Shown here: one piece after another, positions 23,547-50,415 of the stretch | How positions within the stretch are numbered: position 1 is the first letter of the stretch | How the letters are laid out: the number at the start of each line of letters is the position of its first letter | NCBI RefSeq assembly: GCF_000374085.1 | Contig: NZ_KB893570.1 | Coordinates: 65,155 to 129,154, forward strand | Source of the DNA: Spirosoma spitsbergense DSM 19989 | GTDB taxonomy: Bacteria > Bacteroidota > Bacteroidia > Cytophagales > Spirosomataceae | DNA: 64,000 nucleotides | Direction: 5' to 3' | Notes under the pieces: model-generated | The model's input: the letters and a program-made list of their open reading frames with translations, nothing else | Database searches by the model: none | What the model was told of the DNA's origin: nothing | Position numbers and translations under genes: made by a program

Positions 23547-23591
23547 TTACGGTTAATGACAGACTGTTGACCCATACTTCATTAAGCGTAA
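23547..23591. repeat. Stop-to-start inverted repeat, plsX-fabH spacer
   Basis: Arms 23547-23559 and 23579-23591 match at 12 of 13 positions. The left arm begins 9 nt after the plsX stop and the right arm ends 16 nt before the fabH start. The right arm overlaps the -7 box of the fabH promoter. Confidence 0.6.
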
Positions 23592-23596
23592 CTTTG
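23567..23596 (+). promoter_or_regulatory. Internal promoter for fabH-efp-accB-accC
   Basis: TTG (23567-23569), a 19-nt spacer and TAACTTTG (23589-23596) form the best-fitting Bacteroidota promoter in the window. The predicted leader is only a few nucleotides long before the fabH start at 23608. Confidence 0.7.
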
Positions 23597-23607
23597 TACC
23601 CCAACTT

Positions 23608-24591
23608 ATGAGTAAAGCTGCCATAACAGGAATTCACGGCTACGTTCCCGACTACATACTGACCAATGCAGAGTTGGAGCGTATGGTGGATACAAATGAT
23701 GAATGGATTACAAGTCGCACCGGTATTAAAGAACGGCATATCCTGAAAGGCGAAGGTATGGGGTCCTCGCACATGGGGTCGAAAGCAGTAGCAGGCTTGC
23801 TCGAAAAGATGAATATTAAGCCTGAACAGGTTGATTTACTCATTTGTGCCACAACGACCCCCGATTACGTGTTTCCCTGTACCGCTAACCTGATTTGCGA
23901 TATGGTGGGTATTCGTAATATAGGAAGCTTTGACATTCAGGCCGCCTGTTCCGGTTTTCTGTATGCCCTTACCATTGGAACACAGTTTATTGAAACAGGA
24001 AAGTACAGGAAAGTAATCGTTGTAGGCGCCGATAAAATGTCGGCCATTACCGATTATACAGACCGCACTACCTGCGTTCTATTCGGCGATGGGGCCGGAG
24101 CTGTGATGCTCGAGCCTAACGACGAGGGCGTAGGTGTCCTCGACTCCATTATTAAATCGGACGGCAGTGGCCAGAATCACCTCTTGCAGAAAGCGGGCGG
24201 CAGCCGCTATCCGCCCTCGCACGAAACAGTAGAGAAACGCTGGCATTACGTTTATCAGGATGGGCCGTCCGTTTTTAAATTCGCAGTTAAAAACATGGCT
24301 GATGTATCCGCTGAAATAATGGAACGGAATCATCTATCAGGCTCTGATGTAGCTTGGTTGGTGCCTCATCAGGCCAACAAACGCATTATTGATGCTACCG
24401 CTCACCGGATGGGTATCGAGTCCGACAGAGTCATGCTCAATATTCACAAGTACGGCAACACCACAGCGGCCACTATCCCCTTGTGTCTATTTGATTATGA
24501 GTCGCAGTTAAAAAAAGGGGACAATCTGATTATGGCTGCTTTCGGGGGTGGCTTTACATGGGGGGCTGCCTATATAAAGTGGGCCTATTAA
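23608..24591 (+). CDS. fabH: 3-oxoacyl-ACP synthase III
   Basis: Starts fatty acid synthesis by condensing acyl-CoA with malonyl-ACP. The 327-residue enzyme has the full catalytic triad: Cys114 (QAACSGF), His254 (PHQANK) and Asn284 (KYGNTT). The C-terminal [13 protein letters not shown] is typical. It sits between plsX and efp and has its own promoter. Confidence 0.97.
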
Positions 24592-24606
24592 TTTTTATGT
24601 ATGGTA

Positions 24607-24658
24607 TATGATATAGGATGTATTTTCCTCTACCATGTATTATACATCTTACATCATA
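24607..24658. repeat. Stop-to-start inverted repeat, fabH-efp spacer
   Basis: Arms 24607-24622 and 24643-24658 match at 14 of 16 positions. The left arm starts 16 nt after the fabH stop and the right arm ends 11 nt before the efp start. The right arm, TACATCTTACATCATA, contains no G and is made of repeated TACATC-like words. Confidence 0.65.
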
Positions 24659-24669
24659 CATCTTAAACA

Positions 24670-25233
24670 ATGGCAACGACCGCAGACATTCGAAATGGAC
24701 TGGTCTTAGATTACAATAACGACCTTTTTCAAATTACAGAATTCCAACATGTTAAGCCCGGAAAAGGGGCTGCTTTCGTACGAACAAAGTTAAAAAGTCT
24801 CACGACTGGCCGCGTCATTGACAACACCTTCAATTCGGGTGCTACAATTTACCCGGTTCGTGTTGAACGTCGAAAATTCCAATACCTTTACAAAGACGAA
24901 GCCGGTTTTAACTTCATGGATCAGGAGACGTTCGATCAGATCAATCTGGACGAAAAAATCATTGATGGGGCAGATTTGATGAAGGAAGGTCAGGAAGTTG
25001 AAATTCTTATCAACGCCGAAAGTGACACGCCCCTTTCCTGCGAATTACCCCCATTTGTTGAACTGGTAGTAACTTATGCAGAGCCGGGTATTAAAGGCGA
25101 TACAGCCAATAGCCCTAAAAAGCGGGTAGAAGTAGAGTCGGGTGCCAAGATTATGGTTCCACTTTTTATCGAGTCAGGAGCAAAAATTAAGGTTGATACC
25201 CGAACACGCGATTACGTAGAACGAGTGAAATAA
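24670..25233 (+). CDS. efp: Elongation factor P
   Basis: Rescues ribosomes stalled at proline stretches. The 187-residue protein has the three-domain EF-P layout. The modification-site loop is KPGKGAAF with Lys32 at the position of E. coli Lys34. The conserved C-terminal end is IKVDTRTRDYVERVK. No modification enzyme gene is in the window. It lies between fabH and accB in a conserved order. Confidence 0.97.
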   Translation: MATTADIRNGLVLDYNNDLFQITEFQHVKPGKGAAFVRTKLKSLTTGRVIDNTFNSGATIYPVRVERRKFQYLYKDEAGFNFMDQETFDQINLDEKIIDGADLMKEGQEVEILINAESDTPLSCELPPFVELVVTYAEPGIKGDTANSPKKRVEVESGAKIMVPLFIESGAKIKVDTRTRDYVERVK

Positions 25234-25251
25234 GTCTTTGAATGATCTATT

Positions 25252-25328
25252 ATAAATGATGAATGATGAATAAATAGCCGCTTCGGTTATGGTTAATGTG
25301 TTTTCAGGATGCATCATTCATCATTTAT
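25252..25328. repeat. Stop-to-start inverted repeat, efp-accB spacer (17 bp perfect)
   Basis: Arms 25252-25268 and 25312-25328 are exact reverse complements, built from the tandem word ATGATGA. The left arm starts 18 nt after the efp stop and the right arm ends 12 nt before the accB start. The right arm is free of G. Confidence 0.8.
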
Positions 25329-25340
25329 GGTTCAAGCACT

Positions 25341-25820
25341 ATGAGTACACAAGATATACAGCAACTTATTGACTTCATCTCCCAATCAGGCTTGGATGAG
25401 GTTAACATCGAGACAACCGACCTGAAGATCAGCGTTAAGCGGTACGGTCAAAATCCCCCATCGGCTCCCGTTGCCATGGCGGCACCAGTCACCCCTGCCT
25501 TGCAAATGCAGGCTTCGACACCAGTACCTGCGGCTTCGACACAGGTAGCAGCTTCACCACCAAAGGCTGATACATCGAACTACATTACCATTAAGTCCCC
25601 CATGATCGGTACATTCTATCGGTCAGTCAATCCTGAGTCGCCCATGTTTGTAGAAGTTGGTGACAGTATCAGTGAGGGTAAAGTGGTATGCATCATTGAA
25701 GCCATGAAATTGTTCAACGAAATCGAATCAGAGATTTCGGGGCGTATTGTGAAAATACTTGTCGAAAATGCGACTCCCGTCGAGTATGACCAGCCGTTGT
25801 TTTTGGTAGAACCCATTTAA
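25341..25820 (+). CDS. accB: Acetyl-CoA carboxylase biotin carboxyl carrier protein
   Basis: Carries the biotin of acetyl-CoA carboxylase, the first committed step of fatty acid synthesis. The start at 25341 gives 159 residues beginning MSTQDIQQLIDFI; the longer frame would run back through the inverted repeat. A Pro/Ala-rich linker (about 37-78) precedes the biotinyl domain, with biotinylated Lys123 in EAMKLFNEI and the thumb-bearing sequence before it. It is paired with accC. Confidence 0.97.
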   Translation: MSTQDIQQLIDFISQSGLDEVNIETTDLKISVKRYGQNPPSAPVAMAAPVTPALQMQASTPVPAASTQVAASPPKADTSNYITIKSPMIGTFYRSVNPESPMFVEVGDSISEGKVVCIIEAMKLFNEIESEISGRIVKILVENATPVEYDQPLFLVEPI

Positions 25821-25821
25821 C

Positions 25822-25895
25822 TGAAAGAGTGAAAGAGCGAAAGAGCGAAAGGGTGTCTAGAACATTTTTCGCTCTTTCGCTCTTTCACTCTTTCA
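25822..25895. repeat. Stop-to-start inverted repeat, accB-accC spacer (29 bp perfect)
   Basis: Arms 25822-25850 and 25867-25895 are exact reverse complements around a 16-nt loop. The left arm is a tandem array of the octamer GAAAGAG(C/T). It begins 1 nt after the accB stop and the right arm ends 11 nt before the accC start. No T run follows, so it is not a normal terminator. Confidence 0.9.
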
Positions 25896-25906
25896 CTCTT
25901 TAGACC

Positions 25907-27250
25907 ATGTTTAAAAAAATTCTTATCGCCAATCGGGGCGAGATTGCGTTACGTATTATCCGTACCTGTCGCGAGATGAACATCAAAACGGTTGCCGTTT
26001 ACTCGACGGCCGACCGAGATAGTTTGCACGTACGCTTTGCCGATGAAGCTGTATGTATTGGTCCTCCCGCAAGCCGCCAATCGTACCTGAGTATTCCTAA
26101 CATCATTTCAGCAGCCGAAGTAACCGGAGCCGACGCTATTCATCCTGGCTATGGATTCTTGTCGGAGAATGCCGAGTTTTCCCAGATATGTGCCGACTAC
26201 GGTATCAAGTTTATTGGGGCAACCGCCGAACAAATTAATGGCATGGGCGATAAGGCTACGGCTAAAGCGACCATGAAAGCAGCTGGTGTACCGGTCATTC
26301 CCGGCTCAGAAGGACTGCTGGAGTCATTTGAGCAGGGCCAGAAATTGTCGGCGGCTATGGGTTATCCAGTCATTGTGAAGGCAACGGCCGGTGGCGGTGG
26401 TCGAGGAATGCGGATTGTTCGGTCGGAAGGAGAATTTGAAAAGGCCTGGAATGATGCCCGCACCGAAGCCGGAGCCGCTTTCGGCAACGACGGCCTATAC
26501 CTGGAGAAATACGTTGAAGAGCCGCGCCATATCGAAATTCAGATTATTGGTGATCAATTCGGTAAAGTCTGCCATTTGTCGGAAAGGGATTGCTCCATTC
26601 AGCGCCGGCATCAGAAATTAATTGAAGAGACGCCGTCGCCAATCGTATCTGATGAACTTCGGCAACGAATGGGCGAGGCTGCCATAAAAGGAGCACAAGC
26701 CATTGGCTACGAAGGAGCCGGAACCGTTGAGTTTCTGGTGGATAAACATGGAGATTTTTACTTCATGGAGATGAACACCCGGATTCAGGTAGAGCACCCG
26801 ATTACGGAGGAAGTAACCGACTTTGATTTAATAAAAGAGCAAATTAAGGTAGCGGCAGGCACCGAGATTTCAGGACGCAACTACACTCCGAAACTGTTTG
26901 CCATGGAGTGCCGCATTAATGCTGAAGACCCGGCTAATGGGTTTCGGCCATCACCGGGTAAAATCACGAACCTTCACTTCCCCGGTGGTCATGGTGTCCG
27001 GATTGACAGCCATGTGTACAGCGGCTATACTATTCCACCAAACTATGACTCGATGATTGCCAAATTGATTGTATCGGGTCAATCACGGGAAGAAGTGATT
27101 ACCCGCATGAAACGAGCTTTGCAGGAGTTCGTTATCGAAGGTATAAAAACGACGATTCCCTTTCATATCCGATTGATGGATGATCCTAAATTCCAATCAG
27201 GTCAGTTCACAACCGCCTTTCTGGATACGTTTGATTTTAGCAAGTTGTAG
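25907..27250 (+). CDS. accC: Acetyl-CoA carboxylase, biotin carboxylase subunit
   Basis: ATP-dependent carboxylation of the biotin on AccB. The 447 residues match the family. Signatures are [22 protein letters not shown] at the N-terminus, [13 protein letters not shown], the ATP-grasp glycine loop [31 protein letters not shown] with the catalytic Arg, and [14 protein letters not shown]. It ends the cluster and is followed by a terminator. Confidence 0.98.
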
Positions 27251-27283
27251 AAAAAGGGCTTTAGTCCGTGATACCTCATTAGA

Positions 27284-27330
27284 AAATACGAGGTGGTCTG
27301 CTTTACTGGCAGGCCACCTCGTATTTTTTT
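27284..27330 (+). terminator. Terminator after accC
   Basis: An 18-bp stem (27284-27301 with 27309-27326, one G-U pair) with a 7-nt loop and a T run of seven. It separates the acc cluster from the symporter gene. Confidence 0.9.
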
Positions 27331-27342
27331 AATACCCACTGC

Positions 27343-28989
27343 ATGAATCACCTCGCTACTGCCGATTATCTCGTTTTCTTTGTTTACTTCATCATTGTTG
27401 TTGGCTACGGTTACTGGGTTTACCAGCGGAAACGCTCATCCCAGATGAGCACTACCGACTTTTTTCTGGCCGAAGGGTCGCTTACCTGGTGGGCCATTGG
27501 TGCTTCGCTTATTGCTTCTAATATTTCGGCAGAGCATTTTATCGGCATGGCAGGTTCGGGTTTTGCCATGGGGCTGGCCATCTCGTCTTACGAGTGGTTC
27601 GCTGCCGCTACGCTGATTATTGTGGCGGCATTTTTTATCCCCATTTACCTTCGGAACCATATATATACTATGCCCCAGTTTCTGGCGCAACGATATAGCG
27701 ATACGGTTAGTACGATTCTGGCCATATTCTGGCTTGTCGTTTATGTGCTGGTTAACTTAAGTTCCATTCTATACCTTGGTGCCATTGCCATCGAGTCGCT
27801 GGTCGGAATTTCGTTTACGGCCTGCACCATTGGGCTGGCCATATTTGCTATTTTCATTACACTCGGAGGCATGAAAGTTATTGGCTATACCGATGTGATA
27901 CAGGTAGTTGTATTAATCTTTGGCGGGCTGGTTGTTACTTACCTGGCACTGCAACTAGTAGCACAGGAAACCAGCGGTTCGGCCACCGCCAGCGTGTGGA
28001 GTGGTTTACTCTCGCTCCGTCAGAAAGCTGATAGCCATTTTCACATGTTTTTTCCGAAAGGCAACCCGAATTACGAAGTGCTACCAGGCATGGCGCTGGT
28101 AACGGGCGGCATGTGGCTCAATAACCTGTATTACTGGGGTTGCAACCAATACATTGTGCAACGAGCATTGGGAGCCGATCTGAAAACGGCTCGTACCGGA
28201 ATCCTGTTTGCGGCTTTCCTGAAATTGATGATTCCCCTCATTGTGGTTATTCCAGGCATTGCTGCCTACGTACTGTATCAAAGCGGACCTTTCCGCGAAG
28301 CGATGACCGACGCTTCGGGCGTCGTAAAACCCGATCAAGCGTATCCAGTCCTGATGAACCTATTGCCAGTAGGTATGAAAGGGCTTGCTTTTGCGGCTCT
28401 GACAGCGGCTGTCGTTGCTTCACTAGCCAGCAAATGCAATTCTATTTCAACCATTTTCACGCTCGACCTTTATAAAAAATACGTAAACAAAAATGCATCG
28501 GACCAAAAGCTGGTTAACGTAGGCCGCTGGGCGGTGGTGGTTTCTTTCCTGGTAGCCATTGCCGTAGCCCCCATGCTGCGATCACTCGATCAGGTATACC
28601 AGTACATTCAGGAGTATACCAACTTCGTTACGCCCGGTATCTTTGCCATATTTCTGCTGGGGTTCTTCTGGAAGCGGGCCACCAACCGGGCGGCCCTGAC
28701 GGTGGCCATTATAACGCTTCCCCTCTCCACGTTGCTCAAATTCTGGCCCGAGGTAACCAACTTATTTGGTATTCAGTCCGATTCGATTCCCTTCCTGCAC
28801 CGCACCACCTGGGTATTCTGCATCGACATTCTATTGATGGTGGTTATCTCACTGACCGATCCGGCCGGGTATGCTAACAATAAGGAAATCATCGTTGACA
28901 AGCAGATGTTCCGGGTAACCCCTTCGTTTGTCATTGGATCGGTTAGTATTTTTGGTATTTTGGCTGTGTTATATACTATATTCTGGTAA
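27343..28989 (+). CDS. Sodium:solute symporter (SGLT-like), probably for a sugar or myo-inositol
   Basis: A 548-residue inner-membrane transporter of the SSS family with about 14 membrane segments. Family signatures are TTDFFLAEGSLTWWAIGASLIASNISAEHFIGMAGSGFAMGLA and the GGMKVIGYTDVIQ segment. The first part resembles the SGLT/sugar branch. The next gene encodes myo-inositol oxygenase, so myo-inositol is a reasonable substrate guess, but this is inferred from position only. A predicted start at 27343 follows the accC terminator by 12 bp. Confidence 0.88.
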   Translation: MNHLATADYLVFFVYFIIVVGYGYWVYQRKRSSQMSTTDFFLAEGSLTWWAIGASLIASNISAEHFIGMAGSGFAMGLAISSYEWFAAATLIIVAAFFIPIYLRNHIYTMPQFLAQRYSDTVSTILAIFWLVVYVLVNLSSILYLGAIAIESLVGISFTACTIGLAIFAIFITLGGMKVIGYTDVIQVVVLIFGGLVVTYLALQLVAQETSGSATASVWSGLLSLRQKADSHFHMFFPKGNPNYEVLPGMALVTGGMWLNNLYYWGCNQYIVQRALGADLKTARTGILFAAFLKLMIPLIVVIPGIAAYVLYQSGPFREAMTDASGVVKPDQAYPVLMNLLPVGMKGLAFAALTAAVVASLASKCNSISTIFTLDLYKKYVNKNASDQKLVNVGRWAVVVSFLVAIAVAPMLRSLDQVYQYIQEYTNFVTPGIFAIFLLGFFWKRATNRAALTVAIITLPLSTLLKFWPEVTNLFGIQSDSIPFLHRTTWVFCIDILLMVVISLTDPAGYANNKEIIVDKQMFRVTPSFVIGSVSIFGILAVLYTIFW

Positions 28990-29051
28990 TTCCGGGCATG
29001 ATTTTACGCCGACGAACTCCCGTACTCTACTGATTAACAGGAAAAAAAGTC

Positions 29052-29059
29052 TAAATTTG
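29052..29059 (+). promoter_or_regulatory. Possible -7 box for myo-inositol oxygenase
   Basis: TAAATTTG lies 21 bp before the ATG at 29081 and fits TAnnTTTG. No clear -33 element is seen. Confidence 0.45.
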
Positions 29060-29080
29060 TCTTCTAATTTTTCAGCCGTC

Positions 29081-29935
29081 ATGATTAGCGAAACAGCCCC
29101 ACTTACCAGTCTGGATCAATGGGAAGACGACTTGCTGAGTCGTTATCCCGAACCCGAACATAAGTCGAAAGAAGATTACCGGAATTACGATACACCGGAA
29201 CGCGATACGGTCCGGGAATTTTACCGGCTCAATCATACCTACCAAACCTATGATTTCGTGCGTGAAAAAGAGCGCGAGTTTCTGGCCTTCGATAAAAAAG
29301 AACTGCCGGTTTGGGGAGCAATGGAGTTCCTAAACACCCTTGTCGACGATTCAGACCCCGATACAGACCTGGATCAGCTTCAACATCTGCTTCAAACCGC
29401 CGAAGCCATCCGCGCCGACGGTCATCCGGATTGGTTTGTTCTGACCGGCTTTCTGCACGATATGGGCAAAGTGTTGTGTCTTTTTGGCGAGCCTCAATGG
29501 GCCGTTGTAGGGGATACCTTCCCGGTTGGCTGTCAGCATTCAGACAAGATTGTTTACCCCGAATTCTTCGCCAACAATCCCGACAGTCAGGATGAGCGGT
29601 ATAATACCAAATATGGTGTGTACGAACCGAACTGCGGCTTGCGGAACGTGCATATGTCGTGGGGCCACGACGAATACCTGTACCAGATCATGAAGGATTA
29701 TTTGCCCGAACCGGCTCTATACATGATGCGCTACCATTCGTTTTATTCGCAGCACCGCGAGGAGGCTTATAATCACCTGATGGATGAGCATGACCACGAG
29801 ATGTTCCAGTGGGTACGCAAGTTTAATCCGTATGACCTATACTCAAAAAGCCCAAAGCCCCCCGTAGTAAGTGAACTGAAGCCTTACTACGAGGAGTTGA
29901 TCGCTAAATATTTGCCGGCTACCCTCAAACTTTAA
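29081..29935 (+). CDS. myo-Inositol oxygenase
   Basis: Opens myo-inositol with O2 to D-glucuronate, a di-iron HD-domain enzyme first known from animals and plants. The 284 residues match the animal length. All six iron ligands are present in order: His102 (QHLLQTAE), His126 and Asp127 (LHDMGK), His196 (SWGHDEY), His219 (YHSFY) and Asp252 (FNPYDLY). The block FGEPQWAVVGDTFPVGC is nearly identical to the human enzyme. I chose the ATG at 29081, since the frame upstream overlaps the symporter gene. With the upstream symporter it suggests inositol uptake and conversion to glucuronate; no downstream uronate genes are in the window. Confidence 0.95.
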   Translation: MISETAPLTSLDQWEDDLLSRYPEPEHKSKEDYRNYDTPERDTVREFYRLNHTYQTYDFVREKEREFLAFDKKELPVWGAMEFLNTLVDDSDPDTDLDQLQHLLQTAEAIRADGHPDWFVLTGFLHDMGKVLCLFGEPQWAVVGDTFPVGCQHSDKIVYPEFFANNPDSQDERYNTKYGVYEPNCGLRNVHMSWGHDEYLYQIMKDYLPEPALYMMRYHSFYSQHREEAYNHLMDEHDHEMFQWVRKFNPYDLYSKSPKPPVVSELKPYYEELIAKYLPATLKL

Positions 29936-29950
29936 AAGTCAGGCGGCCTG

Positions 29951-30016
29951 ATCAGACAATAAAAATTCCGTAAGTGCTTGATAAATCAAGCACTTACGGA
30001 ATTTTTATTGTCTGAT
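29951..30016 (+). terminator. Long hairpin after myo-inositol oxygenase
   Basis: A perfect 32-bp stem (29951-29982 with 29985-30016) with a loop of two bases, 15 nt after the stop. An A5/T5 tract is inside the stem and no T run follows, so it may terminate transcription, protect the mRNA 3' end, or both. Confidence 0.75.
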
Positions 30017-30020
30017 TATG

Positions 30021-30028
30021 TAGATTTG
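30021..30028 (+). promoter_or_regulatory. Possible -7 box for the second symporter
   Basis: TAGATTTG lies 19 bp before the start at 30048, directly after the long hairpin. The -33 region would fall inside the hairpin and shows no match. Confidence 0.35.
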
Positions 30029-30047
30029 GCGGTTTGACTGCTCCATT

Positions 30048-31851: not shown

Positions 31852-31852
31852 A

Positions 31853-31902
31853 GGTAGTAGACGATTTTCGATGCAGTCTGGTATTTTTTCGTTCCTACTA
31901 CC
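31853..31902. repeat. Short stop-to-start inverted repeat, nudix-dinB spacer
   Basis: GGTAGTAG at 31853-31860 pairs with CTACTACC at 31895-31902. On the minus strand the upstream arm covers the Nudix stop codon and the downstream arm ends 1 nt before the DinB-like start. It is only 8 bp, so weak alone, but the placement fits the other spacer repeats. Confidence 0.4.
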
Positions 31903-32363: not shown

Positions 32364-32414
32364 GAAAGAGCGACTGCTTTCCCAACTTGTTGCTGGAAAA
32401 ACAATCGCTCTTTC
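32364..32414. repeat. Stop-to-start inverted repeat, dps-nudix spacer
   Basis: GAAAGAGCGA (32364-32373) and TCGCTCTTTC (32405-32414) are exact reverse complements. On the minus strand the first arm lies 24 nt after the dps stop and the second ends 13 nt before the chosen Nudix start. The arm word is shared with the accB-accC repeat. Confidence 0.6.
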
Positions 32415-42378: not shown

Positions 42379-42442
42379 GGTAGCTGGCCCTTCTCTGATC
42401 ATATTAAAGCGACTAATTTCCGGGGAAAGTTTACGCAACGTA

Positions 42443-42474: not shown

Positions 42475-42484
42475 TGCGCTCAAT

Positions 42485-42577
42485 CGGGGTGTAGCGCAGC
42501 CTGGTAGCGTGCTACGTTCGGGACGTAAAGGTCGTGGCCGGGCCGCCGGTGCGGTTCGAATCCCACCACCCCGACCA
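42485..42577 (+). tRNA. tRNA-Pro (anticodon CGG) with 16 extra nucleotides in the T-arm
   Basis: A perfect acceptor stem CGGGGTG/CACCCCG with discriminator A and encoded CCA (42575-42577). The D-arm has AGCCTGGTA in the loop and the anticodon loop TTCGGGA gives anticodon CGG. The T-loop TTCGAAT is at 42555-42561, followed by CCCAC. The matching 5' strand GTGGG is interrupted: GTGG at 42534-42537 is followed by 16 GC-rich bases (42538-42553) and then G. The anticodon stem also has a C-A mismatch at the top (27-43). It is 93 nt instead of about 77. It could be a functional variant with a bulge or enlarged variable region, a processed insertion, or a decaying gene. Confidence 0.8.
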
Positions 42578-42592
42578 AAACGAAATTTAACG

Positions 42593-42646
42593 ATGAATAA
42601 CGCAGTAAACATGATTTGGTGGTGGCACTCTTCTCAACCGAGATGA
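42593..42646 (+). CDS. trpL: trp operon leader peptide
   Basis: A 17-residue frame MNNAVNMIWWWHSSQPR with three consecutive TGG Trp codons (42617-42625). It lies 15 nt after the tRNA-Pro 3' end and 99 bp before trpE, and is followed by a terminator hairpin. The arrangement is that of ribosome-mediated attenuation, in which a ribosome stalled at the Trp codons prevents terminator formation. The leader start can pair with downstream GTTTAC (GTAAACA 42605-42611 with 42663-42669). The competing antiterminator helix is not clear by eye. Confidence 0.85.
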   Translation: MNNAVNMIWWWHSSQPR

Positions 42647-42683
42647 GGGTTGCCCCTATTGTTGTTTACCAGAAAACGATATA

Positions 42684-42720
42684 AAGGCTCACCGTCATCC
42701 CGGTGAGCCTTATTTTTTTT
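42684..42720 (+). terminator. trp attenuator
   Basis: AAGGCTCACCG (42684-42694) pairs with CGGTGAGCCTT (42701-42711) around a 6-nt loop, followed by eight T. It lies 37 nt after the leader peptide stop and 25 nt before trpE. Confidence 0.9.
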
Positions 42721-42745
42721 CCTTTTCAGTAAAAATTACCAGAAA

Positions 42746-44203
42746 ATGACTACGACAAAACCCACTACCTACCGCGTTATCAGCCGCCACAAGCGGATGC
42801 TAGCCGATATTATTACGCCGGTCAGCATCTACCTACGTATCCGTGACCGGTTTTTGAACAGTATTCTGCTCGAAAGCTCAGACTATCATGGCAACGAAAA
42901 CTCGTTTTCGTACATCGCCTTCGACCCGGTTGCCCGATTCTCGTACGAGACTGGAAGGCTGACCATTAAGATGCCGGAAGAACCGGAGCAAACCCGCGAC
43001 TTACCTATTCAGGAAATGAAGGGTGCTCTTCAGCAATTCAAAGACAGCTTTCAACACCAGAAATCTCCTTTTTCTTTTATTACAAATGGTCTGTTCGGGT
43101 ACTTTGGCTATCCGGCTGTGCAGAGTTTTGAAGATATTACCCTCCACGCTCCCGTACCGCCCGAAAACCAGATTCCGGCCGCCGTTTTTATGGTGTATCG
43201 CTATGTATTGGCTATCAACCACTTTAAAGATGAGCTATATCTGTTTGAACATAGCTACATTCCGGAAGGAGAAACCGAAGACCCAGCATCAATCGAAACA
43301 CCGGAGCAGGACCGGCTCGACTACATTAGTGAGTTAATTACGGGTCGAAACTATCCTACCTACACCTTCAGCACGGCTGGGCCCGAACAGTCGAACTTCA
43401 CGGACGATGCGTTCAGGGGGGTTATTCAGAAAGGCATTGACCATTGCCATCGGGGTGATGTATTTCAGATTGTGCTGGCGCGTCGGTTTTCGACCCCGTT
43501 CATAGGCGATGAATTTAATGTATACCGGACGCTACGGTCGCTAAACCCCTCCCCATATCTATTCTATTTCGATTACGGCAGTTATAAACTATTCGGTTCC
43601 TCGCCCGAATCGCAGATTGTAGTTAAAGACCGAAAAGCCACCATTTACCCCATTGCAGGCACCTTCCGGCGTACGGGCGACGACATCCGGGATGCCGAAC
43701 TGGCGCAGAAGCTATACGACGATCCCAAAGAGTCGGCCGAGCACGTTATGCTGGTAGACCTGGCCCGCAATGACCTAAGCCGTAACTGCGATGTGGTCAA
43801 CGTAGAGACGTTCAAAGAAGTGCAATATTACTCACACGTTATTCACCTGGTCTCTAAAGTGGTGGGTAACCTAACCGAAACCGCCGTCCCATTGCAGATT
43901 GTGGCCGAAACGTTCCCGGCTGGTACGCTCTCGGGCGCACCCAAGCATATGGCGATGACCCTAATAGACCGATACGAGAATCTGAGCCGTAGTTTCTATT
44001 CCGGCAGTATTGGCTACATGGGTTTTGACGGGGAGTTCAACCATGCCATTATGATTCGGACCTTCATGAGCAAGGATAACACACTGTACTATCAGGCTGG
44101 GGCGGGTGTAGTAGCCAAATCAGTCGTTGAAAGTGAACTACAGGAAGTCCATAACAAACTGGCTGCTCTACGAATGGCAATTGAACAGGCAAAAAATTTA
44201 TAG
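42746..44203 (+). CDS. trpE: Anthranilate synthase component I
   Basis: Converts chorismate to anthranilate with ammonia delivered by TrpG. The 485 residues match the family. The LLESSD motif near residue 38 is the tryptophan feedback-binding site. The C-terminal chorismate-binding domain includes DVFQIVLARRF, FGSSPE, PIAGTFRRTGDD, MLVDLARNDL and SGAPKHMAM. First gene of trpEGDCFBA. Confidence 0.97.
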   Translation: MTTTKPTTYRVISRHKRMLADIITPVSIYLRIRDRFLNSILLESSDYHGNENSFSYIAFDPVARFSYETGRLTIKMPEEPEQTRDLPIQEMKGALQQFKDSFQHQKSPFSFITNGLFGYFGYPAVQSFEDITLHAPVPPENQIPAAVFMVYRYVLAINHFKDELYLFEHSYIPEGETEDPASIETPEQDRLDYISELITGRNYPTYTFSTAGPEQSNFTDDAFRGVIQKGIDHCHRGDVFQIVLARRFSTPFIGDEFNVYRTLRSLNPSPYLFYFDYGSYKLFGSSPESQIVVKDRKATIYPIAGTFRRTGDDIRDAELAQKLYDDPKESAEHVMLVDLARNDLSRNCDVVNVETFKEVQYYSHVIHLVSKVVGNLTETAVPLQIVAETFPAGTLSGAPKHMAMTLIDRYENLSRSFYSGSIGYMGFDGEFNHAIMIRTFMSKDNTLYYQAGAGVVAKSVVESELQEVHNKLAALRMAIEQAKNL

Positions 44204-44215
44204 TATCAGGAGTAA

Positions 44216-44268
44216 GTAATGGAAGTGAGGAGCCACCAATTCTATTTTCTTCTCCTCACTCCTATTAC
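44216..44268. repeat. Stop-to-start inverted repeat, trpE-trpG spacer
   Basis: Arms 44216-44232 and 44252-44268 match at 15 of 17 positions, with further partial pairing outward. The left arm starts 12 nt after the trpE stop (partial pairing begins at 44207). The right arm ends 23 nt before trpG and is a G-free run of CTCC/CACTCC words. Confidence 0.65.
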
Positions 44269-44291
44269 ACACTCCCCACTCCTTAAAAAAA

Positions 44292-44858
44292 ATGAAACTT
44301 CTTGTTTTAGATAATTACGATTCCTTCACCTATAACCTCGTGTATATTCTGCGGGAGTTAGGAACAAAGCCCGATGTAATCAGGAATGATAAAATCGCGC
44401 TGGAATCCGTTGGACAGTATGACAAAATCATGCTTTCGCCGGGGCCGGGAATCCCCTCCGAAGCGGGTATTATGCAGGATCTGGTCCGTATGTACGGACC
44501 TACCAAAAGCATTTTGGGTATCTGTCTCGGCCATCAGGGTATTGGCGAAGTATACGGAGCTACGCTGGAAAATCTGGGTGAGGTATTGCACGGTGTAGCC
44601 CATCGGACCATCATCACCGACCGCTCTGAATACCTCTTTCAAGACATTCCCGACGAATTGACGGTGGGCAGGTATCATTCCTGGACGGTTGTGCCTGACT
44701 CATTACCGGCAGATCTCCGCGTAACGGCTGTAGATGAGAAGGGCCGTATCATGGGTCTGATGCATTCACACTATGATGTCCGGGGATTGCAATTTCACCC
44801 GGAGTCGATTTTGACCGAAAACGGCGTGAAGATGATTCAAAACTGGTTAGCACTGTAG
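44292..44858 (+). CDS. trpG: Anthranilate synthase component II (glutamine amidotransferase)
   Basis: Releases ammonia from glutamine for TrpE. The 188-residue class I amidotransferase has Cys78 (GICLGHQ), His169 and Glu171 (FHPES). The N-terminus LLVLDNYDSFTYNLV is typical. It may also serve p-aminobenzoate synthesis, as in some bacteria, but its place in the trp operon favours anthranilate. Confidence 0.97.
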   Translation: MKLLVLDNYDSFTYNLVYILRELGTKPDVIRNDKIALESVGQYDKIMLSPGPGIPSEAGIMQDLVRMYGPTKSILGICLGHQGIGEVYGATLENLGEVLHGVAHRTIITDRSEYLFQDIPDELTVGRYHSWTVVPDSLPADLRVTAVDEKGRIMGLMHSHYDVRGLQFHPESILTENGVKMIQNWLAL

Positions 44859-44976
44859 AGACGCGATACCTCGCGTCTCATGTGCGACAGCAATAAATAG
44901 CATTTGTGCAAACTGCACACAATCACACACAGTAGCAAAACCCTCCGGTCAGGAGAGACGCGAGGTATCGCATCTC
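44858..44976. repeat. Stop-to-start inverted repeat of two REP-like palindromes, trpG-trpD spacer
   Basis: Arms 44858-44879 and 44955-44976 match at 21 of 22 positions. Each arm is also a hairpin on its own: the left is GAGACGCGA, a 4-nt loop and TCGCGTCTC. The left arm overlaps the last base of the trpG stop and the right arm ends 17 nt before trpD. Confidence 0.85.
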
Positions 44977-44993
44977 TCCACATAAACTAAACC

Positions 44994-45980
44994 ATGAAAG
45001 CGATTCTCAATCACTTATTCGAATACAAACACCTAACCAAAGACCAGGCGCGTGAAGTGCTTCTGGGCATTGGCCGGGGTGAGTACAATCCAGCGCAGAT
45101 AGCCTCCTTTCTGACCGTTTATATGATGCGTAGTCTACGGCTTGAAGAACTTGAAGGCTTTCGCGATGCGATGCTTGACCTTTGCCTGCCAGTCGACCTG
45201 GCAGACTACGATCCAATGGACCTCTGCGGCACCGGGGGGGATGGCAAAGACACCTTCAATATATCGACGCTGTCCTCCTTCGTCGTTGCCGGAGCGGGGC
45301 AGCGGGTTGCCAAGCACGGGAATCATGGGGTGTCATCGCTGGTTGGTTCGTCGACGGTTATGGAATACTTAGGCTATCGATTTACGAATGATGTGGGCGA
45401 ACTACAGCGAAAGATGGAAACAGCGGGCATTTGTTTCCTTCACGCGCCCCTCTTCCATCCGGCCATGAAAAATGTTGCCCCCATCCGGAAAGATCTGGGC
45501 GTAAAAACTTTTTTCAATGTACTGGGACCAATGATAAATCCGGCAAGGCCCGCCAAGCAGCTTGTTGGGGTGTTTAGTCTTGAATTGGCACGATTATATG
45601 CGTACCTTTATCAGCAAACCGACAAGCAGTTTATGATTCTGCACGCCCTGGATGGCTACGACGAAATTTCGCTGACCGGCGCGTTCAAAGTTATTACCAG
45701 CCAGACAGAACAGGTGCTGGAACCAAGACAGTTAGGGTTTGATGTGCTGAAGCCCGAATCACTGGCCGGCGGACAAACACTGGATGAATCAGCACAGATA
45801 TTTATGAATGTGCTGAACGACAAAGCCACCTCTTCTCAGAAACAGGCCGTTCTGGCTAATTCGGCCATGGCATTGCTGGCTGCCGGGAAAGTCAACGGCC
45901 GGGAAGATGCGGTGGCAATGGCACGGGAATCATTGGAAAGCGGAAAGGCGTTGAACTGTTTTAAGAAGTTAATTGCATAA
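44994..45980 (+). CDS. trpD: Anthranilate phosphoribosyltransferase
   Basis: Adds phosphoribose from PRPP to anthranilate. The 328-residue enzyme has the GTGGDGKDTFNIS motif and KHGNHGVSS, which bind PRPP, and the NVAPIRKDLGVKTFFNVLGPMINP block. It is the functional counterpart of the motif-poor paralogue at 34246-35505. Confidence 0.97.
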   Translation: MKAILNHLFEYKHLTKDQAREVLLGIGRGEYNPAQIASFLTVYMMRSLRLEELEGFRDAMLDLCLPVDLADYDPMDLCGTGGDGKDTFNISTLSSFVVAGAGQRVAKHGNHGVSSLVGSSTVMEYLGYRFTNDVGELQRKMETAGICFLHAPLFHPAMKNVAPIRKDLGVKTFFNVLGPMINPARPAKQLVGVFSLELARLYAYLYQQTDKQFMILHALDGYDEISLTGAFKVITSQTEQVLEPRQLGFDVLKPESLAGGQTLDESAQIFMNVLNDKATSSQKQAVLANSAMALLAAGKVNGREDAVAMARESLESGKALNCFKKLIA

Positions 45981-45995
45981 AACCAGCCGTTAGTC

Positions 45996-46044
45996 GTCAT
46001 TTTTAGTCATTTTTTTTGTTTCGCGATGAATGACAGTCAATGAC
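45996..46044. repeat. Stop-to-start inverted repeat, trpD-trpC spacer
   Basis: Arms 45996-46011 and 46029-46044 share two GTCATT/AATGAC words in register (12 of 16 matches). The left arm starts 15 nt after the trpD stop and the right arm ends 24 nt before trpC. Weaker than the neighbours. Confidence 0.45.
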
Positions 46045-46068
46045 CACTACTGACTACTCTGACAACGA

Positions 46069-46893
46069 ATGACAATTCTTGACGAGATTATTGCGCAAAA
46101 GCGAATCGAAGTAGCCCAGCGAAAAGAAACTACGCCAGTATCAGCACTGGAACAAATGCCCGACTTCAAACGGATATGCCTGTCGACACGGGATGCCGTT
46201 CAGGAATTTCGCTCGACGGGTATCATTGCGGAGTTTAAACGCAAATCCCCCTCTAAAGGCATCATCAATGCCAAGGCCGATGTAACAGAAACCACGCAGG
46301 GTTATGTTCGGGCGGGAGCAGCCGTCCTGTCCATATTAACCGATGAGCCCTTTTTTGGCGGAATACCGGCCGATTTGCAGGCTGCGCGGCTGGCGAATCC
46401 TGAAACGCCGATTTTGCGCAAAGACTTTGTTATTGACCGCTACCAGCTTCTGGAAGCTAAAGCCTGGGGTGCCGACGTTGTTTTGCTGATTGCCGCTTGC
46501 CTAACGCCGGAAGAGGTCAATGAACTTAGTATGCAGGCCCACGACCTGAGTTTACAGGTACTCCTTGAAGTACACGATGAGGATGAACTGAATCGTTGTC
46601 TCACGCACAACGTCGACCTGGTGGGTGTCAATAATCGCAACCTGAAGACATTCAAAACCGATATCGAGACATCGCTTCGGCTGATTGAGCAAATTCCAGA
46701 CACGTTTGCAAAAATCACCGAAAGTGGTTTGACCGATGCGGCAACCATGATAACCCTTTTCAAGGCCGGTTTCGACGGTTTTCTCATCGGCGAAGCGTTT
46801 ATGAAAACTACTGACCCAGCCGCAGCGCTGCAAGCATTAGTAACAGATTTTCAATCACGAATGCCCACCTTCATCAACTCGTTCAACTCATGA
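46069..46893 (+). CDS. trpC: Indole-3-glycerol phosphate synthase
   Basis: Closes the indole ring. The 274-residue TIM barrel has the N-terminal ILDEIIAQKRIEVAQRK, EFKRKSPSKGII with the catalytic Lys, LRKDFVIDRYQ and VGVNNRNLKTF. Its stop overlaps the trpF start by 4 bases. Confidence 0.97.
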   Translation: MTILDEIIAQKRIEVAQRKETTPVSALEQMPDFKRICLSTRDAVQEFRSTGIIAEFKRKSPSKGIINAKADVTETTQGYVRAGAAVLSILTDEPFFGGIPADLQAARLANPETPILRKDFVIDRYQLLEAKAWGADVVLLIAACLTPEEVNELSMQAHDLSLQVLLEVHDEDELNRCLTHNVDLVGVNNRNLKTFKTDIETSLRLIEQIPDTFAKITESGLTDAATMITLFKAGFDGFLIGEAFMKTTDPAAALQALVTDFQSRMPTFINSFNS

Positions 46894-47528
46894 AAATAAA
46901 AGTGTGCGGTCTACGCGACGCCGAAAACATAAAAGACATAGCCGCTCTACATCCTGATTTTATTGGCTTTATCTTCTACGATCAGTCTTCCCGTTTTGTT
47001 GGTGACGATTTGGACGAAGCGGTTGTAAGGTCACTCCCCAAGTCGATTCGAAAGGTAGGGGTATTTGTAAATGCCAGCCCGGATTATATTCTGAGAAGTG
47101 TAAAAAAATACGATTTTCAGTACGTGCAGCTTCACGGTAGCGAAACACCCGATTACTGCCGTAGCCTGAGGAACCGGGGTATTAACATCATCAAAGCATT
47201 TCGGGTGAATGAGTCGTTCAACTTCTCGATGCTGAATAACTATAAGGCTCAGTGCGACTTTTTTCTGTTCGATGCCAAAGGGGAGCAGCCTGGTGGAAAC
47301 GGTATTACGTTCGACTGGCAAATCATGAGCCGATACGATAACGAAAAACCCTTTTTCATCAGCGGTGGTATTGGCCTGGACAACCTCGACGAGTTGGTTG
47401 CCCTTAAGAATATTAAGCCCTATGGGGTGGACATAAACAGCCAGGTCGAAACGGAGCCCGGAGTAAAAGATGTAGCCAAAGTGAAGGAATTGATTGACCG
47501 GCTCCGGCCTGTTGAGGAAGAAGCATAG
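46890..47528 (+). CDS. trpF: Phosphoribosylanthranilate isomerase
   Basis: Isomerises phosphoribosylanthranilate for TrpC. The 212-residue TIM barrel begins KIKVCGLR with the catalytic Cys6. The general-acid Asp lies in LFDAKGEQPGGNG, and SGGIGLDN and GVDINSQVETEPGVKD form the phosphate end. It starts within the trpC stop (ATGA), indicating translational coupling. The 76-nt spacer to trpB lacks the stop-to-start repeat seen elsewhere. Confidence 0.95.
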   Translation: MKIKVCGLRDAENIKDIAALHPDFIGFIFYDQSSRFVGDDLDEAVVRSLPKSIRKVGVFVNASPDYILRSVKKYDFQYVQLHGSETPDYCRSLRNRGINIIKAFRVNESFNFSMLNNYKAQCDFFLFDAKGEQPGGNGITFDWQIMSRYDNEKPFFISGGIGLDNLDELVALKNIKPYGVDINSQVETEPGVKDVAKVKELIDRLRPVEEEA

Positions 47529-47604
47529 TAACGGGGTTTTTACGTGACGGGACCTTGAGTTCCCTCCTTTTGTCAGGATTACGCTTAGATTAGTACTCAT
47601 TCGT

Positions 47605-48804
47605 ATGCAAACCACAATAGAACCACAAACCTCTTTTGAGGTAACGGATCAAGGATTTTATGGCCATTTCGGCGGGGCTTTTATTCCCGAAATGCTTTAC
47701 CCGAACGTAGAAGAACTACGTCAGAATTACCTCTCCATTATTGCTGATCCCGGTTTTCAGACTGAGTTCTGGCAATTGCTGGAAGACTACGTTGGTCGGC
47801 CGACGCCTTTATTTCTGGCAAAAAGATTATCGGCGCAAATTGGTGCAACCATATACCTCAAACGCGAAGACCTGTGTCATACCGGAGCGCATAAAATAAA
47901 TAACACGATTGGTCAGATTCTGGTCGCGCAACGGCTGGGCAAGAAACGTATCGTTGCCGAAACGGGAGCGGGTCAGCATGGTGTAGCAACGGCAACAGTT
48001 TGCGCATTGATGGGTATGGAATGCATCGTTTATATGGGCAGCATCGACATGGAACGGCAAAAGCCCAATGTTGACCGGATGCGGATGCTTGGCGCAACAG
48101 TCGTGCCGGCCACATCGGGTAGCCAAACCCTTAAAGATGCCACAAACGAGGCCATGCGTCACTGGATTAATAATCCTGTTGACACTCACTATATTATTGG
48201 TTCTGTGGTAGGGCCACACCCATACCCGGACATGGTCGCCCGGTTTCAGTCGGTCATTTCGGAAGAAATCAGAAAGCAACTTTTCACTAAAACCGGGCGC
48301 GAAACACCCGACTATGTGGTGGCTTGTGTAGGTGGAGGCAGCAATGCTGCGGGGGCGTTTTTCCATTACCTAAATGAACCCTCCGTACGCCTGGTAGCCG
48401 CAGAAGCCGCTGGACAGGGCGTTTCGTCAGGACACTCGGCCGCTACCACTGCCCTTGGTAAACCAGGTGTTTTACACGGTAGCCGCACCATTCTGATGCA
48501 AACTGAAGATGGTCAGGTAACAGAGCCTTATTCTATTTCGGCTGGTCTGGATTATCCCGGCATTGGCCCGCTGCACGCACACCTGTTTGAGTCAGGCCGG
48601 GGCGATTTTTACGCCATTACCGACGATGAGGCTTTACAGGCTTGTTTTGAACTCAGCCAACTTGAAGGCATCATCCCCGCCCTGGAAACTGGACACGCAC
48701 TGGCGGCACTCGCTAAAATGAACCTCAAATCGGAGGATGTTATCGTAGTTTGTTTGTCAGGCCGGGGCGATAAAGATTTGAGTACTTATTCAAAGTATCT
48801 ATAG
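47605..48804 (+). CDS. trpB: Tryptophan synthase beta chain
   Basis: Joins indole and serine. The 399-residue PLP enzyme has Lys97 in HTGAHKINN, the GAGQHGVA loop and the C-terminal CLSGRGDKD phosphate-binding end. It is paired with trpA downstream. Confidence 0.98.
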
Positions 48805-48819
48805 ATTGTACAGCCACTA

Positions 48820-48903
48820 ATTGTCATTCCCGGTCATTAGTTGTCATCAATCGTTTACTAATACCTGACAATCGAATGACTAAGAATGACCGTTAATGAC
48901 AAT
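48820..48903. repeat. Stop-to-start inverted repeat, trpB-trpA spacer
   Basis: Arms 48820-48838 and 48885-48903 match at 17 of 19 positions, built from repeated GTCATT words. The left arm starts 15 nt after the trpB stop and the right arm ends 12 nt before trpA. Confidence 0.75.
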
Positions 48904-48915
48904 CAATAACAACCA

Positions 48916-49710
48916 ATGACCCTATTAACTACCCAGAACCGTATTTCAGACCTGTTTTCACAAAAAAGTGAACGACTGCTGAACGTTTATTTCACCGCTG
49001 GTTTTCCAAATCTTGTCGATACCGTACCCATTCTTCGTGGTTTACAGGCAGCCGGTGTAGACCTGGTTGAAATAGGGATGCCCTACTCTGACCCCGTTGC
49101 TGACGGCGAAACTATTCAGCAAAGCAACGGAAAAGCACTGGAAAATGGTATGTCGTTGAAGAAGCTGTTTACTCAGCTAGCCGATTGTCGTCAGGAAGGC
49201 ATCACTGTCCCGATTTTGCTGATGGGCTATATCAATCCAGTACTACAATTCGGAGTAGAAAACTTTTGCCGGAAGTGCCAGGAAGTCGGCGTTGATGGCG
49301 TTATCCTACCCGATTTACCACTGGATTTATTCCTGTTTGACTATGCCGAAACATTCCGCAGGTATGGTATTCTGAATGTACATCTTATTACACCCCAAAC
49401 ATCAGAAGCACGAATTCGGCTCATTGACGAAGAGTCGGAAGGGTTTATTTATATGGTCTCATCGGCCAGTATTACAGGTTCCGTAAAGGGCGTTAGCGAT
49501 ACCATGGAGACCTACTTCAAGCGTATTCAGGCTATGAACCTGCGAAATCCGAGACTGATTGGATTTGGTATCAATAACCACGAAACCTTCGACATGGCCA
49601 GCCAATATGCCAATGGAGCTATTGTGGGCAGTGCTTTTATTCGGCACCTGGATGAAAAAGGGATATCACCTGATACCATTCGGGCATTTGTGCAGACGAT
49701 TCGGGCCTAG
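48916..49710 (+). CDS. trpA: Tryptophan synthase alpha chain
   Basis: Cleaves indole-3-glycerol phosphate to indole, which passes to TrpB. The 264-residue TIM barrel has the catalytic Glu52 and Asp63 in VEIGMPYSDPVADG, and the GFGI and GAIVGSAFIRHL phosphate-binding loops. It ends 17 bp before hisIE. Confidence 0.97.
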   Translation: MTLLTTQNRISDLFSQKSERLLNVYFTAGFPNLVDTVPILRGLQAAGVDLVEIGMPYSDPVADGETIQQSNGKALENGMSLKKLFTQLADCRQEGITVPILLMGYINPVLQFGVENFCRKCQEVGVDGVILPDLPLDLFLFDYAETFRRYGILNVHLITPQTSEARIRLIDEESEGFIYMVSSASITGSVKGVSDTMETYFKRIQAMNLRNPRLIGFGINNHETFDMASQYANGAIVGSAFIRHLDEKGISPDTIRAFVQTIRA

Positions 49711-49715
49711 CGGCT

Positions 49716-49723
49716 TACCTTTG
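49716..49723 (+). promoter_or_regulatory. -7-like box just before hisIE
   Basis: TACCTTTG fits TAnnTTTG, but it predicts a start at about the hisIE ATG (49728), so a transcript from it would be leaderless. Read-through from trp may be the main source. Confidence 0.3.
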
Positions 49724-49727
49724 CGTC

Positions 49728-50336
49728 ATGAATTCCGATATTAACTTCAATAAATCACCTGACGGTCTGTTGCCAGCCGTTATTCAGGATGCGGAAACGG
49801 GTAAAGTGCTAATGTTGGGCTACATGAACAGTCAGGCATACGAAAAAACCCTTGCTGAAAACATCGTAACATTCTTCAGCCGGAGCAAAAAACGGCTCTG
49901 GACAAAGGGGGAAACATCCGGCAATTTTTTGCACGTGCGGGAAATGCTGGCAGATTGCGACGGCGATACGCTGCTGATTAAGGCTACCCCTACCGGGCCG
50001 GTTTGCCACACCGGAGCCGATACATGTTTTGAAGAGGTTAATCAGGGAAAGGGACAATTCCTGAATTACTTGCAAGCCATCATCCACGACCGGAAAGTGA
50101 ATCCGTCCGACAAGTCTTACACGACTACCCTATTTAACCGGGGAGTCAATAAGATTGCGCAGAAGGTAGGCGAGGAAGCCGTTGAGCTGGTAATTGAAGC
50201 AAAGGACAACAACGACGACTTATTCAAAGGGGAAGCGGCCGATTTACTCTTTCATTTTCTGGTGTTGTTAGAGCAGAAGAATATGGATTTAGACGACATT
50301 GTATCCGTTCTGAAAAGCCGTCATATCAAACAATAG
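49728..50336 (+). CDS. hisIE: Bifunctional phosphoribosyl-AMP cyclohydrolase/phosphoribosyl-ATP pyrophosphatase
   Basis: Catalyses steps 2 and 3 of histidine synthesis. In 202 residues the HisI half (about 1-110) has ADCDGDTLLIKATPTGPVCHTG with metal ligands, and the HisE half (about 115-200) has KVGEEAVELVIEAK and EAADLLFH. No other his gene is in the window. It is probably co-transcribed with trp and so under tryptophan attenuation in part. Confidence 0.96.
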   Translation: MNSDINFNKSPDGLLPAVIQDAETGKVLMLGYMNSQAYEKTLAENIVTFFSRSKKRLWTKGETSGNFLHVREMLADCDGDTLLIKATPTGPVCHTGADTCFEEVNQGKGQFLNYLQAIIHDRKVNPSDKSYTTTLFNRGVNKIAQKVGEEAVELVIEAKDNNDDLFKGEAADLLFHFLVLLEQKNMDLDDIVSVLKSRHIKQ

Positions 50337-50344
50337 CTTCCTGT

Positions 50345-50415
50345 TTAGAGTTTGTCTTTTCGATAGCGGCAAGTGCCTCGGTGGTACCTGCGAGTCGTTT
50401 CTCACCAAACTCTGA
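50345..50415. repeat. Stop-to-start inverted repeat, hisIE-holin spacer
   Basis: TTAGAGTTTG (50345-50354) pairs with CAAACTCTGA (50406-50415), with one G-U pair. The left arm starts 8 nt after the hisIE stop and the right arm ends 8 nt before the next start. Confidence 0.5.

Follow-up and report, generated by a model that had tools for sequence, protein, structure and literature searches.

Does the inverted repeat that spans an operon spacer from the stop codon of one gene to the start codon of the next serve as a switch for translation, or is it there for another reason? The question is raised by a stretch of Spirosoma spitsbergense DSM 19989 (the window: 64,000 nt, contig NZ_KB893570.1, positions 65,155 to 129,154 of the forward strand, assembly GCF_000374085.1), for which a preliminary description had reported paired complementary arms in 11 named spacers and had proposed that the helix keeps the initiation region inaccessible up to the moment when a ribosome finishing the upstream gene opens it. 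Stop-to-start inverted repeats are confirmed as a clade-wide feature. They are probably dispersed tandem-word palindromes that are kept perfect mainly by template switching and are tolerated in promoter-poor spacers, a reading that allows a cellular role. Translational coupling as the cause of the pairing is not supported, and an RNA role may exist, notably at accB-accC.

If an RNA helix is selected, changes that leave a G.U pair should outlast those that leave A.C, whereas under DNA-level processes the two should be equal. Sense-strand mismatches were accordingly compared in the stop-to-start stems, and 188 distinct hairpins (4612 Watson-Crick pairs, 130 other mismatches) held 106 G.T and 106 A.C. 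Divided by stem-score bin, G.T:A.C was 26:23, 23:32, 34:33 and 23:18. When the comparison was repeated with four scoring schemes on 1400 distinct spacers, all co-directional, the counts were 105:104, 181:208, 160:174 and 50:45, so that the excess of G.U over A.C that marks RNA-level selection was not found in these stems under any of the four; S. spitsbergense alone gave 13:10, 27:26, 20:19 and 7:2, which is too few for a decision. The controls behaved otherwise: terminator-type stems with short loops (≤10 nt) in the same spacers showed 28:2, 85:39, 94:43 and 12:1 under the four schemes, and co-directional terminators 11:1. The equality of G.T and A.C in stop-to-start stems therefore gives no sign of an RNA-level filter on their pairing.

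The arms nevertheless covary, strongly yet wobble-blind. Ortholog pairs with less than 78 per cent identity or a difference above 25 nt were dropped, and 114 positions already mismatched in the reference of the pair were excluded. The remaining alignable pairs showed 44 compensatory, 132 one-sided (44 G.T, 43 A.C and 45 transversions) and 1606 unchanged positions, together with 3 changes on both sides without pairing and 51 positions with one side deleted; the ortholog pairs overlap, and the counts are thus not independent. By our own arithmetic, about 1 compensatory change would be expected from independent mutation against the 44 seen. Loop sites differed between orthologs at 270/1420 positions, and in the efp-accB spacer the arms are identical to those of Spirosoma luteum, the nearest named locus (98 per cent EF-P identity), with 9/43 loop positions changed. 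In the accB-accC spacer, the loop of locus L232 is the inverted loop of L231 over 15/17 nt with the arms in place, a match that no shuffled loop pair equalled (552 x 40), none reaching 0.85 over 15 nt. Template-switch mutation, which the preliminary description had offered as an alternative to its own inference, has thus gained direct footprints in the compensatory changes and the loop inversion.

The spacers named for the window were examined individually. Gene identities were checked by profile search, and the best inverted repeat of each spacer was scored and compared with 300 dinucleotide shuffles; the fraction given is the number of shuffles reaching the real score.

23547..23591, plus strand: plsX-fabH inverted repeat, arms 23547-23559 and 23579-23591; score 10, 0/300.
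24607..24658, plus strand: fabH-efp inverted repeat, arms 24607-24623 and 24642-24658; score 11, 1/300.
25252..25328, plus strand: efp-accB inverted repeat of GATGAAT units (period 7), arms 25252-25268 and 25312-25328; score 17, 0/300.
25822..25895, plus strand: accB-accC inverted repeat of GAAAGAGY units (period 8), arms 25822-25850 and 25867-25895; score 29, 0/300.
31852..31897, minus strand: nudix-dinB spacer, without significant inverted repeat; score 4, 191/300.
32364..32414, minus strand: dps-nudix inverted repeat with a short loop of 9, arms 32394-32414 and 32364-32384; score 12, 0/300.
44209..44275, plus strand: trpE-trpG inverted repeat with GGAGTGA words, arms 44209-44232 and 44252-44275; score 12, 0/300.
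44859..44975, plus strand: trpG-trpD inverted repeat, arms 44859-44879 and 44955-44975; score 18, 0/300.
45991..46049, plus strand: weak, marginal trpD-trpC inverted repeat with GTCATT words, arms 45991-46001 and 46039-46049; score 8, 14/300.
47529..47604, plus strand: trpF-trpB spacer, without inverted repeat (internal negative); score 5, 232/300.
48820..48903, plus strand: trpB-trpA inverted repeat with GTCATT words, arms 48820-48838 and 48885-48903; score 13, 0/300.
50347..50413, plus strand: weak, marginal hisIE-holin inverted repeat with 8-nt arms; score 8, 7/300.

The arms are therefore clear in eight of the 11 spacers for which they had been claimed (0-1/300 shuffles) and marginal in two, and the claim fails for nudix-dinB when our own gene borders are used. 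Their reported position is borne out in the ten clear or marginal spacers, where they lie 0-24 nt past the stop and 10-19 nt ahead of the start, and trpF-trpB lacks a repeat as had been stated. Separately, very long terminator-like stems were observed at operon ends and in one convergent spacer (27283-27327, 29951-30016, 16636-16686 and ~50778-50822); these are distinct from the stop-to-start class.

The frequency of such repeats was determined in 864 kb of the genome, for which 40 stretches of 20 kb were taken, with genes from a simple codon-usage caller whose start choices, except for the acc and trp genes, may be wrong by a few codons. Only spacers of 30-300 nt were counted, which dropped 135/432 co-directional, 50/121 convergent and 26/103 divergent spacers; spacers with ambiguous bases were also dropped, and duplicate genomes and identical arm pairs were removed ahead of counting. 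An inverted repeat with a score of at least 12 was found in 75/297 co-directional (shuffles 0.1), 31/71 convergent (0.0) and 7/77 divergent spacers (0.6); the statement that most long operon spacers carry one is thus right for the operons of the window and does not extend to the genome. Short spacers lack it in this genome, as described (0/72 co-directional spacers of 30-69 nt at score 12), and in a relative (G004) 2/10 spacers of 50-69 nt do hold an inverted repeat. Among the 75 co-directional repeats, 19 are terminator-like and a further 27 begin and end no more than 30 nt from the stop and the start; the latter did not show the features of intrinsic terminators (short loop, G+C-rich stem and a T run behind it), 26/27 having loops of at least 12 nt. 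Repeats reaching to within 30 nt of the gene on either side occupied 27/297 co-directional, 15/71 convergent and 1/77 divergent spacers of the genome.

Both-ends repeats were also counted in the core clade, by which we mean Spirosoma, Rudanella and kin, Larkinella and Fibrella within 80 named loci that are orthologous and hence not independent samples: the both-ends non-terminator class was present in 72/313 co-directional, 13/38 convergent and 0/53 divergent spacers. Elsewhere it was found in 4/73 co-directional spacers of Rhabdobacter and kin and in 7/94 of Arcicella and kin (divergent 2/19), and it was absent from 272 co-directional spacers of Siphonobacter, Runella and Dyadobacter. Hairpins built of tandem words were present in 30/429 co-directional, 1/99 convergent and 4/111 divergent spacers of three Spirosoma genomes, and in 62/313, 3/38 and 1/53, respectively, at the core named loci. 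The genome of S. spitsbergense itself holds them in 4/77 divergent spacers (p 0.27), which argues against a strict link with operons. As an observation in its own right, Dyadobacter carries period-7/8 palindromes (TCGGCAA, CCGCCGA) in convergent spacers (L066:3680, L067:3823, L068:3679 and L072:3766), and its co-directional stop-to-start hairpins number 0/201 at the threshold used for the named loci. No description of stop-to-start spacer hairpins was found in the literature with an open licence.

The arms belong to several families, at least one of which is dispersed, and are not unrelated one-off sequences. In arms of at least 16 nt, the dominant period was 7 in 53/170 and 8 in 48/170 (101/170 together), compared with 3/40 for terminators. 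The words, which like the other repeat likenesses were assigned by eye, include GAAAGAGT, GAATGAGT, GATGAAT, GGAGTGA, GTCATTx, TAAGTCG and GTTTACG, among others, and the loops vary freely. In a second and smaller class each arm forms a short palindrome of its own, resembling repetitive extragenic palindromic (REP) elements; both arms of trpG-trpD are of this kind (AGACGC..GCGTCT). The view that the repeats are not one dispersed element holds in that no single element accounts for them, but the accB-accC arms recur at at least 38 other places of the genome, 30 of them matched on both strands, a lower bound given that 40/115 first-look candidates were scored. Against plasmids, the accB-accC spacer matched one Spirosoma plasmid and, weakly, one Rhizobium sequence. 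Enrichment of intergenic 8-mers revealed little besides GAGCGAAA and T- or A-rich words. A common apex, GGCTGACGC..GCGTCAGCC, was considered as the seed of all hairpins and rejected, as it has only six exact places in the genome, though in several arm families. This apex or a close variant lies within arms of at least three unrelated word families, with sites at the centre of L211-L216 and at the hairpin apices of L175, L098, L176, L195 and L199.

As the preliminary description had it, the start-side arm is G-poor: the 5' arm has G>C in 189 cases, C>G in 39 and equality in 25, and the stem pairs comprise 1715 G-C against 763 C-G, with 1971 A-T and 1610 T-A. The 5'-arm bias also appears weakly in convergent spacers (42:23, equal 7). 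Because a palindrome reads alike from both strands, and in view of this weak convergent bias, arm composition alone is no pointer to transcription.

The position within spacers was assessed for 88 tandem-word hairpins, with the same span slid within its spacer as the null. Their median clearance was 5 nt past the stop and 12.5 nt ahead of the start; arms ran into the upstream stop or gene end in 11/88, and arms of the same hairpin reached the start codon in 0/88 (at L014 another inverted repeat touches the start and was not counted as the same hairpin). Clearance ahead of the start, with none needed past the stop, is as expected from the tolerance of inert palindromes. In Flavobacterium, structure is lowered between -20 and +20, and an A at -3, -6, -12 and -13 has been discussed as favouring initiation (PMC6847099); part of that region falls inside the helix here. 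Compared with sliding, the tandem-word class alone is shifted towards the stop. For all non-terminator hairpins together the proposed double anchoring was not upheld, both ends being anchored in 17/39 against a null mean of 14.4.

Retention and turnover were followed in orthologous acc spacers of 108 distinct genomes (gap of at least 50 nt, inverted repeat score of at least 10). The accB-accC hairpin was present in 50/55 core genomes, namely 37/40 close ones (EF-P identity of at least 86 per cent) and 13/15 further ones (81.5-86 per cent, including two Siphonobacter); outside the core genomes the figures were 3/14 and 4/7. In most species its arms consist of GA[AT][AT]GAG[TC] words, and elsewhere TAAGTCG, TAGTCGA, GTTTACG, GTTTGCT or GTCATTG occupies the same place. 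Ortholog loops are mostly unrelated (identity of at least 0.75 in 17/552 loop pairs). By eye, trpB-trpA shows at least five arm families across the trp operons of 20 relatives, and in the sister species L139 (taken as S. luteum) the trpE-trpG spacer sequence is unrelated; the repeats of L139 are also weaker at trpG-trpD (7 vs 18) and trpB-trpA (9 vs 13). Insertion of hairpins into a conserved short spacer was considered, but core spacers without a hairpin are frequently no shorter than those with one, and many of them may represent decayed hairpins. Independently of these comparisons, REP-like paired palindromes (GCGGACATCTTGTCCGC, ACGGGCTTCAGCCCGT and others) were seen to fill the whole of trpB-trpA in L144-L148 and L152 and of trpE-trpG in L142, leaving 1-4 nt after the stop and 2-4 nt before the start.

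A mechanism in three steps may be proposed for the template-switch reading. A word array or a ready palindrome would enter a spacer and then grow by unit gain. Replication would stall at the hairpin and, as the footprints suggest, the polymerase would copy one arm from the other or cross the loop; a change in one arm would thereby be written into its partner, inserts would be made symmetrical, and loops would be flipped. Selection would purge palindromes in promoters and in the final ~10 nt ahead of a start codon and would spare those past a stop, so that they come to fill the spacer from just past the stop to ~12 nt ahead of the start. The stop-to-start geometry would then chiefly reflect where such DNA can be tolerated, with effects on mRNA stability or coupling being secondary. 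Missing SbcCD was rejected as the reason for palindrome survival: SbcD exceeds the cut-off both in this genome and in Dyadobacter, where stop-to-start hairpins are lacking. Across the family, SbcD matches occur in 94/121 genomes, 87 over the cut-off.

Several results weigh against this template-switch reading. Retention of accB-accC (50/55) exceeds that of the other three acc spacers (88/158, p 1e-6), an excess that a purely mutational account does not predict. The same spacer alone gave 31 G.T vs 19 A.C (p 0.12, not significant), and an RNA effect may be hiding there. The wobble test is weaker in stems of 25-40 bp, because one mismatch costs such an RNA little, although the score 12-18 bins are also without wobble preference. 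The stop-side gap is at most 6 nt in 53/88 tandem-word hairpins (null mean 34, maximum 46) and at most 3 nt in 31/88 (null mean 20, maximum 33), and anchoring by the terminating ribosome is possible. The lower rate of tandem-word hairpins in convergent than in co-directional spacers of the three Spirosoma genomes (1/99 vs 30/429, p 0.017) mildly suggests a link with operons. A clear loop inversion was seen in just 1/552 ortholog loop pairs; a second set of 210 loop pairs, which overlaps the first and in which, after filtering, L231/L232 did not appear, contained none. Lastly, a 16-nt GC-rich insert in accB-accC is absent from L012, present in one arm in L224 and represented by similar words in both arms in L242 and L035; as these loci are not on one proven line of descent, the series is a possible footprint of template switching.

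These points leave some room for a tentative possibility, namely that certain spacers of the Spirosoma-Larkinella-Fibrella clade, accB-accC above all, are sites where any hairpin will do. Hairpins would be swapped between unrelated word families with the stop-to-start helix nearly always present, template switching would supply the variation, and the presence of a helix would be all that is selected, which would make these spacers a sequence-free device in a phylum that lacks Shine-Dalgarno signals.

It is unlikely that the stems act as mRNA stabilisers or as processing or polarity-shielding elements, which would protect the upstream message from exonucleases or cover a C-rich, G-poor start-side arm from Rho. 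The placement just past stops in co-directional and convergent spacers, hardly in divergent ones, and the C-rich, G-poor start-side arm agree with such a role, but the pairing shows no RNA-level preference, the G/C bias of the arms is strand-independent, and in most spacers the presence of the hairpin differs between species.

We consider it improbable that sequence-independent translational coupling, in which the stem hides the initiation region or joins stop and start so that downstream translation needs a ribosome finishing the upstream gene, accounts for the repeats. The base of the stem is within reach of the terminating ribosome and nearer to the stop than sliding predicts, stop-to-start hairpins are hardly found in divergent spacers of the core clade or of the genome, tandem-word hairpins are rarer in convergent spacers, and accB-accC keeps its hairpin while families change. 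Against this stand the lack of wobble preference under all four schemes and a stem that ends short of the start and never enters it. Moreover, tandem-word hairpins are found, though more rarely, in spacers without a following start or between diverging genes, and convergent spacers hold both-ends palindromes no less often than co-directional ones do, in the genome (where some may be unmarked terminators) as in the core clade. The sister species has replaced or weakened the trpE-trpG, trpG-trpD and trpB-trpA hairpins, and the class is missing from the co-directional spacers of Runella, Siphonobacter and Dyadobacter counted above.

Least probable are REP/REPIN-type mobile elements moved by RAYT transposases: the genome has 13 Y1_Tnp matches (several of them fragments) and some arms are self-palindromic (AGACGC..GCGTCT, CGGGTTTCCACCCG, GCGGACATCTTGTCCGC, ACGGGCTTCAGCCCGT), as is compatible with this origin, but tandem-word arms, which make up most arms (101/170), are not self-palindromic, and the repeat clusters beside 2 of 5 inspected transposase matches (CCCGTAGGGAC..GTCGGTAG and CCCGATAGGGGCTGACGGTCAATA) are not tandem-word arms. 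Mobilisation of the tandem-word class by RAYT was accordingly rejected, the five inspected Y1_Tnp flanks carrying other repeats or none by eye; for the REP-like class it may apply. The co-directional hairpin L091:14495 of this genome, which lies outside the tandem-word class, is an exception in that it matches by eye repeats beside the transposase gene in L159. As a separate matter, the Y1_Tnp genes of L159 and L161, both of this genome, are flanked by REP-like repeat clusters (CCCGTAGGGACATAACAGCGAAGCGTCGGTAG and CCCGATAGGGGCTGACGGTCAATA, respectively), the first of which the L091:14495 hairpin resembles, and these transposases with their flanking repeats are likely a RAYT-REP system.

One further observation concerns the tRNA-Pro gene (anticodon CGG) at 42485-42577 of the window, whose T arm holds a 16-nt GC-rich insert, making it 93 nt long compared with 75-77 nt in four relatives; a similar insert is present at the same site in the relative L144. 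Across the genome the word GGNCCGCCGGNGCGGT is present 25 times (control pattern 0), between many different flanks, and it is possibly a very small mobile element.

Among known repeats, the STRR (short tandemly repeated repetitive) heptamers of filamentous cyanobacteria are 7-nt tandem words in variable spacers. They belong to another phylum and are likened to the spacer arms by description, not by sequence; in this sense the arms do consist of tandem 7-nt intergenic words, period 8 falling outside a strict heptamer definition. REPINs are dispersed short intergenic palindromes, often paired. The same is described for the GTAG- and CGTC-tagged REP palindromes (PMC3733652); some spacers here hold such arms, whereas most arms are tandem words without internal palindrome, and the repeats beside the inspected transposase genes are of other families, L091:14495 excepted. 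TAACTGA heptamers form direct repeats in Beggiatoaceae, Cyanobacteria and Bacteroidetes (MacGregor 2015, PMC4679880). They share with the arms the intergenic 7-nt tandem words near start codons, a wide patchy spread and unit-step indels, but they are direct repeats, with one inverted set of 170 in the studied genome, whereas here many word families coexist as inverted-repeat pairs.

Template switching through quasi-palindromes has been reported to make and maintain RNA hairpins in rRNA genes (Monttinen and Loytynoja 2022, PMC8794818). The spacer hairpins resemble those of rRNA in their multi-base compensatory changes, loop inversion, stem-half insertion and excess of 5'-G pairs. The rRNA genes are under RNA selection with G-U intermediates, whereas the present stems lie in protein-operon spacers, show no wobble preference, contain tandem words and are longer; the U-A excess predicted by that work is also absent here. 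In dusB-fis of E. coli, disruption of an intercistronic stem altered translation (PMC5318159). That stem likewise lies near the end of the upstream gene and beside the next start, but the hairpins described here are known from sequence alone, and no RNA-level selection on their pairing was seen.

When the arms of a stem covary, this is commonly read as proof that a functional helix exists in the RNA, and here 188 stems covary strongly without wobble preference. A simple count of G.T against A.C separates DNA-level copying from RNA-level selection and is applicable to any bacterial hairpin family. Of the possibilities left by these results, a sequence-free role at accB-accC is the most interesting. 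For this clade, the hairpin set illustrates how tandem-word palindromes come to occupy operon spacers, with turnover from one sister species to another, and it provides numerous places in which template switching could be observed in a bacterium.

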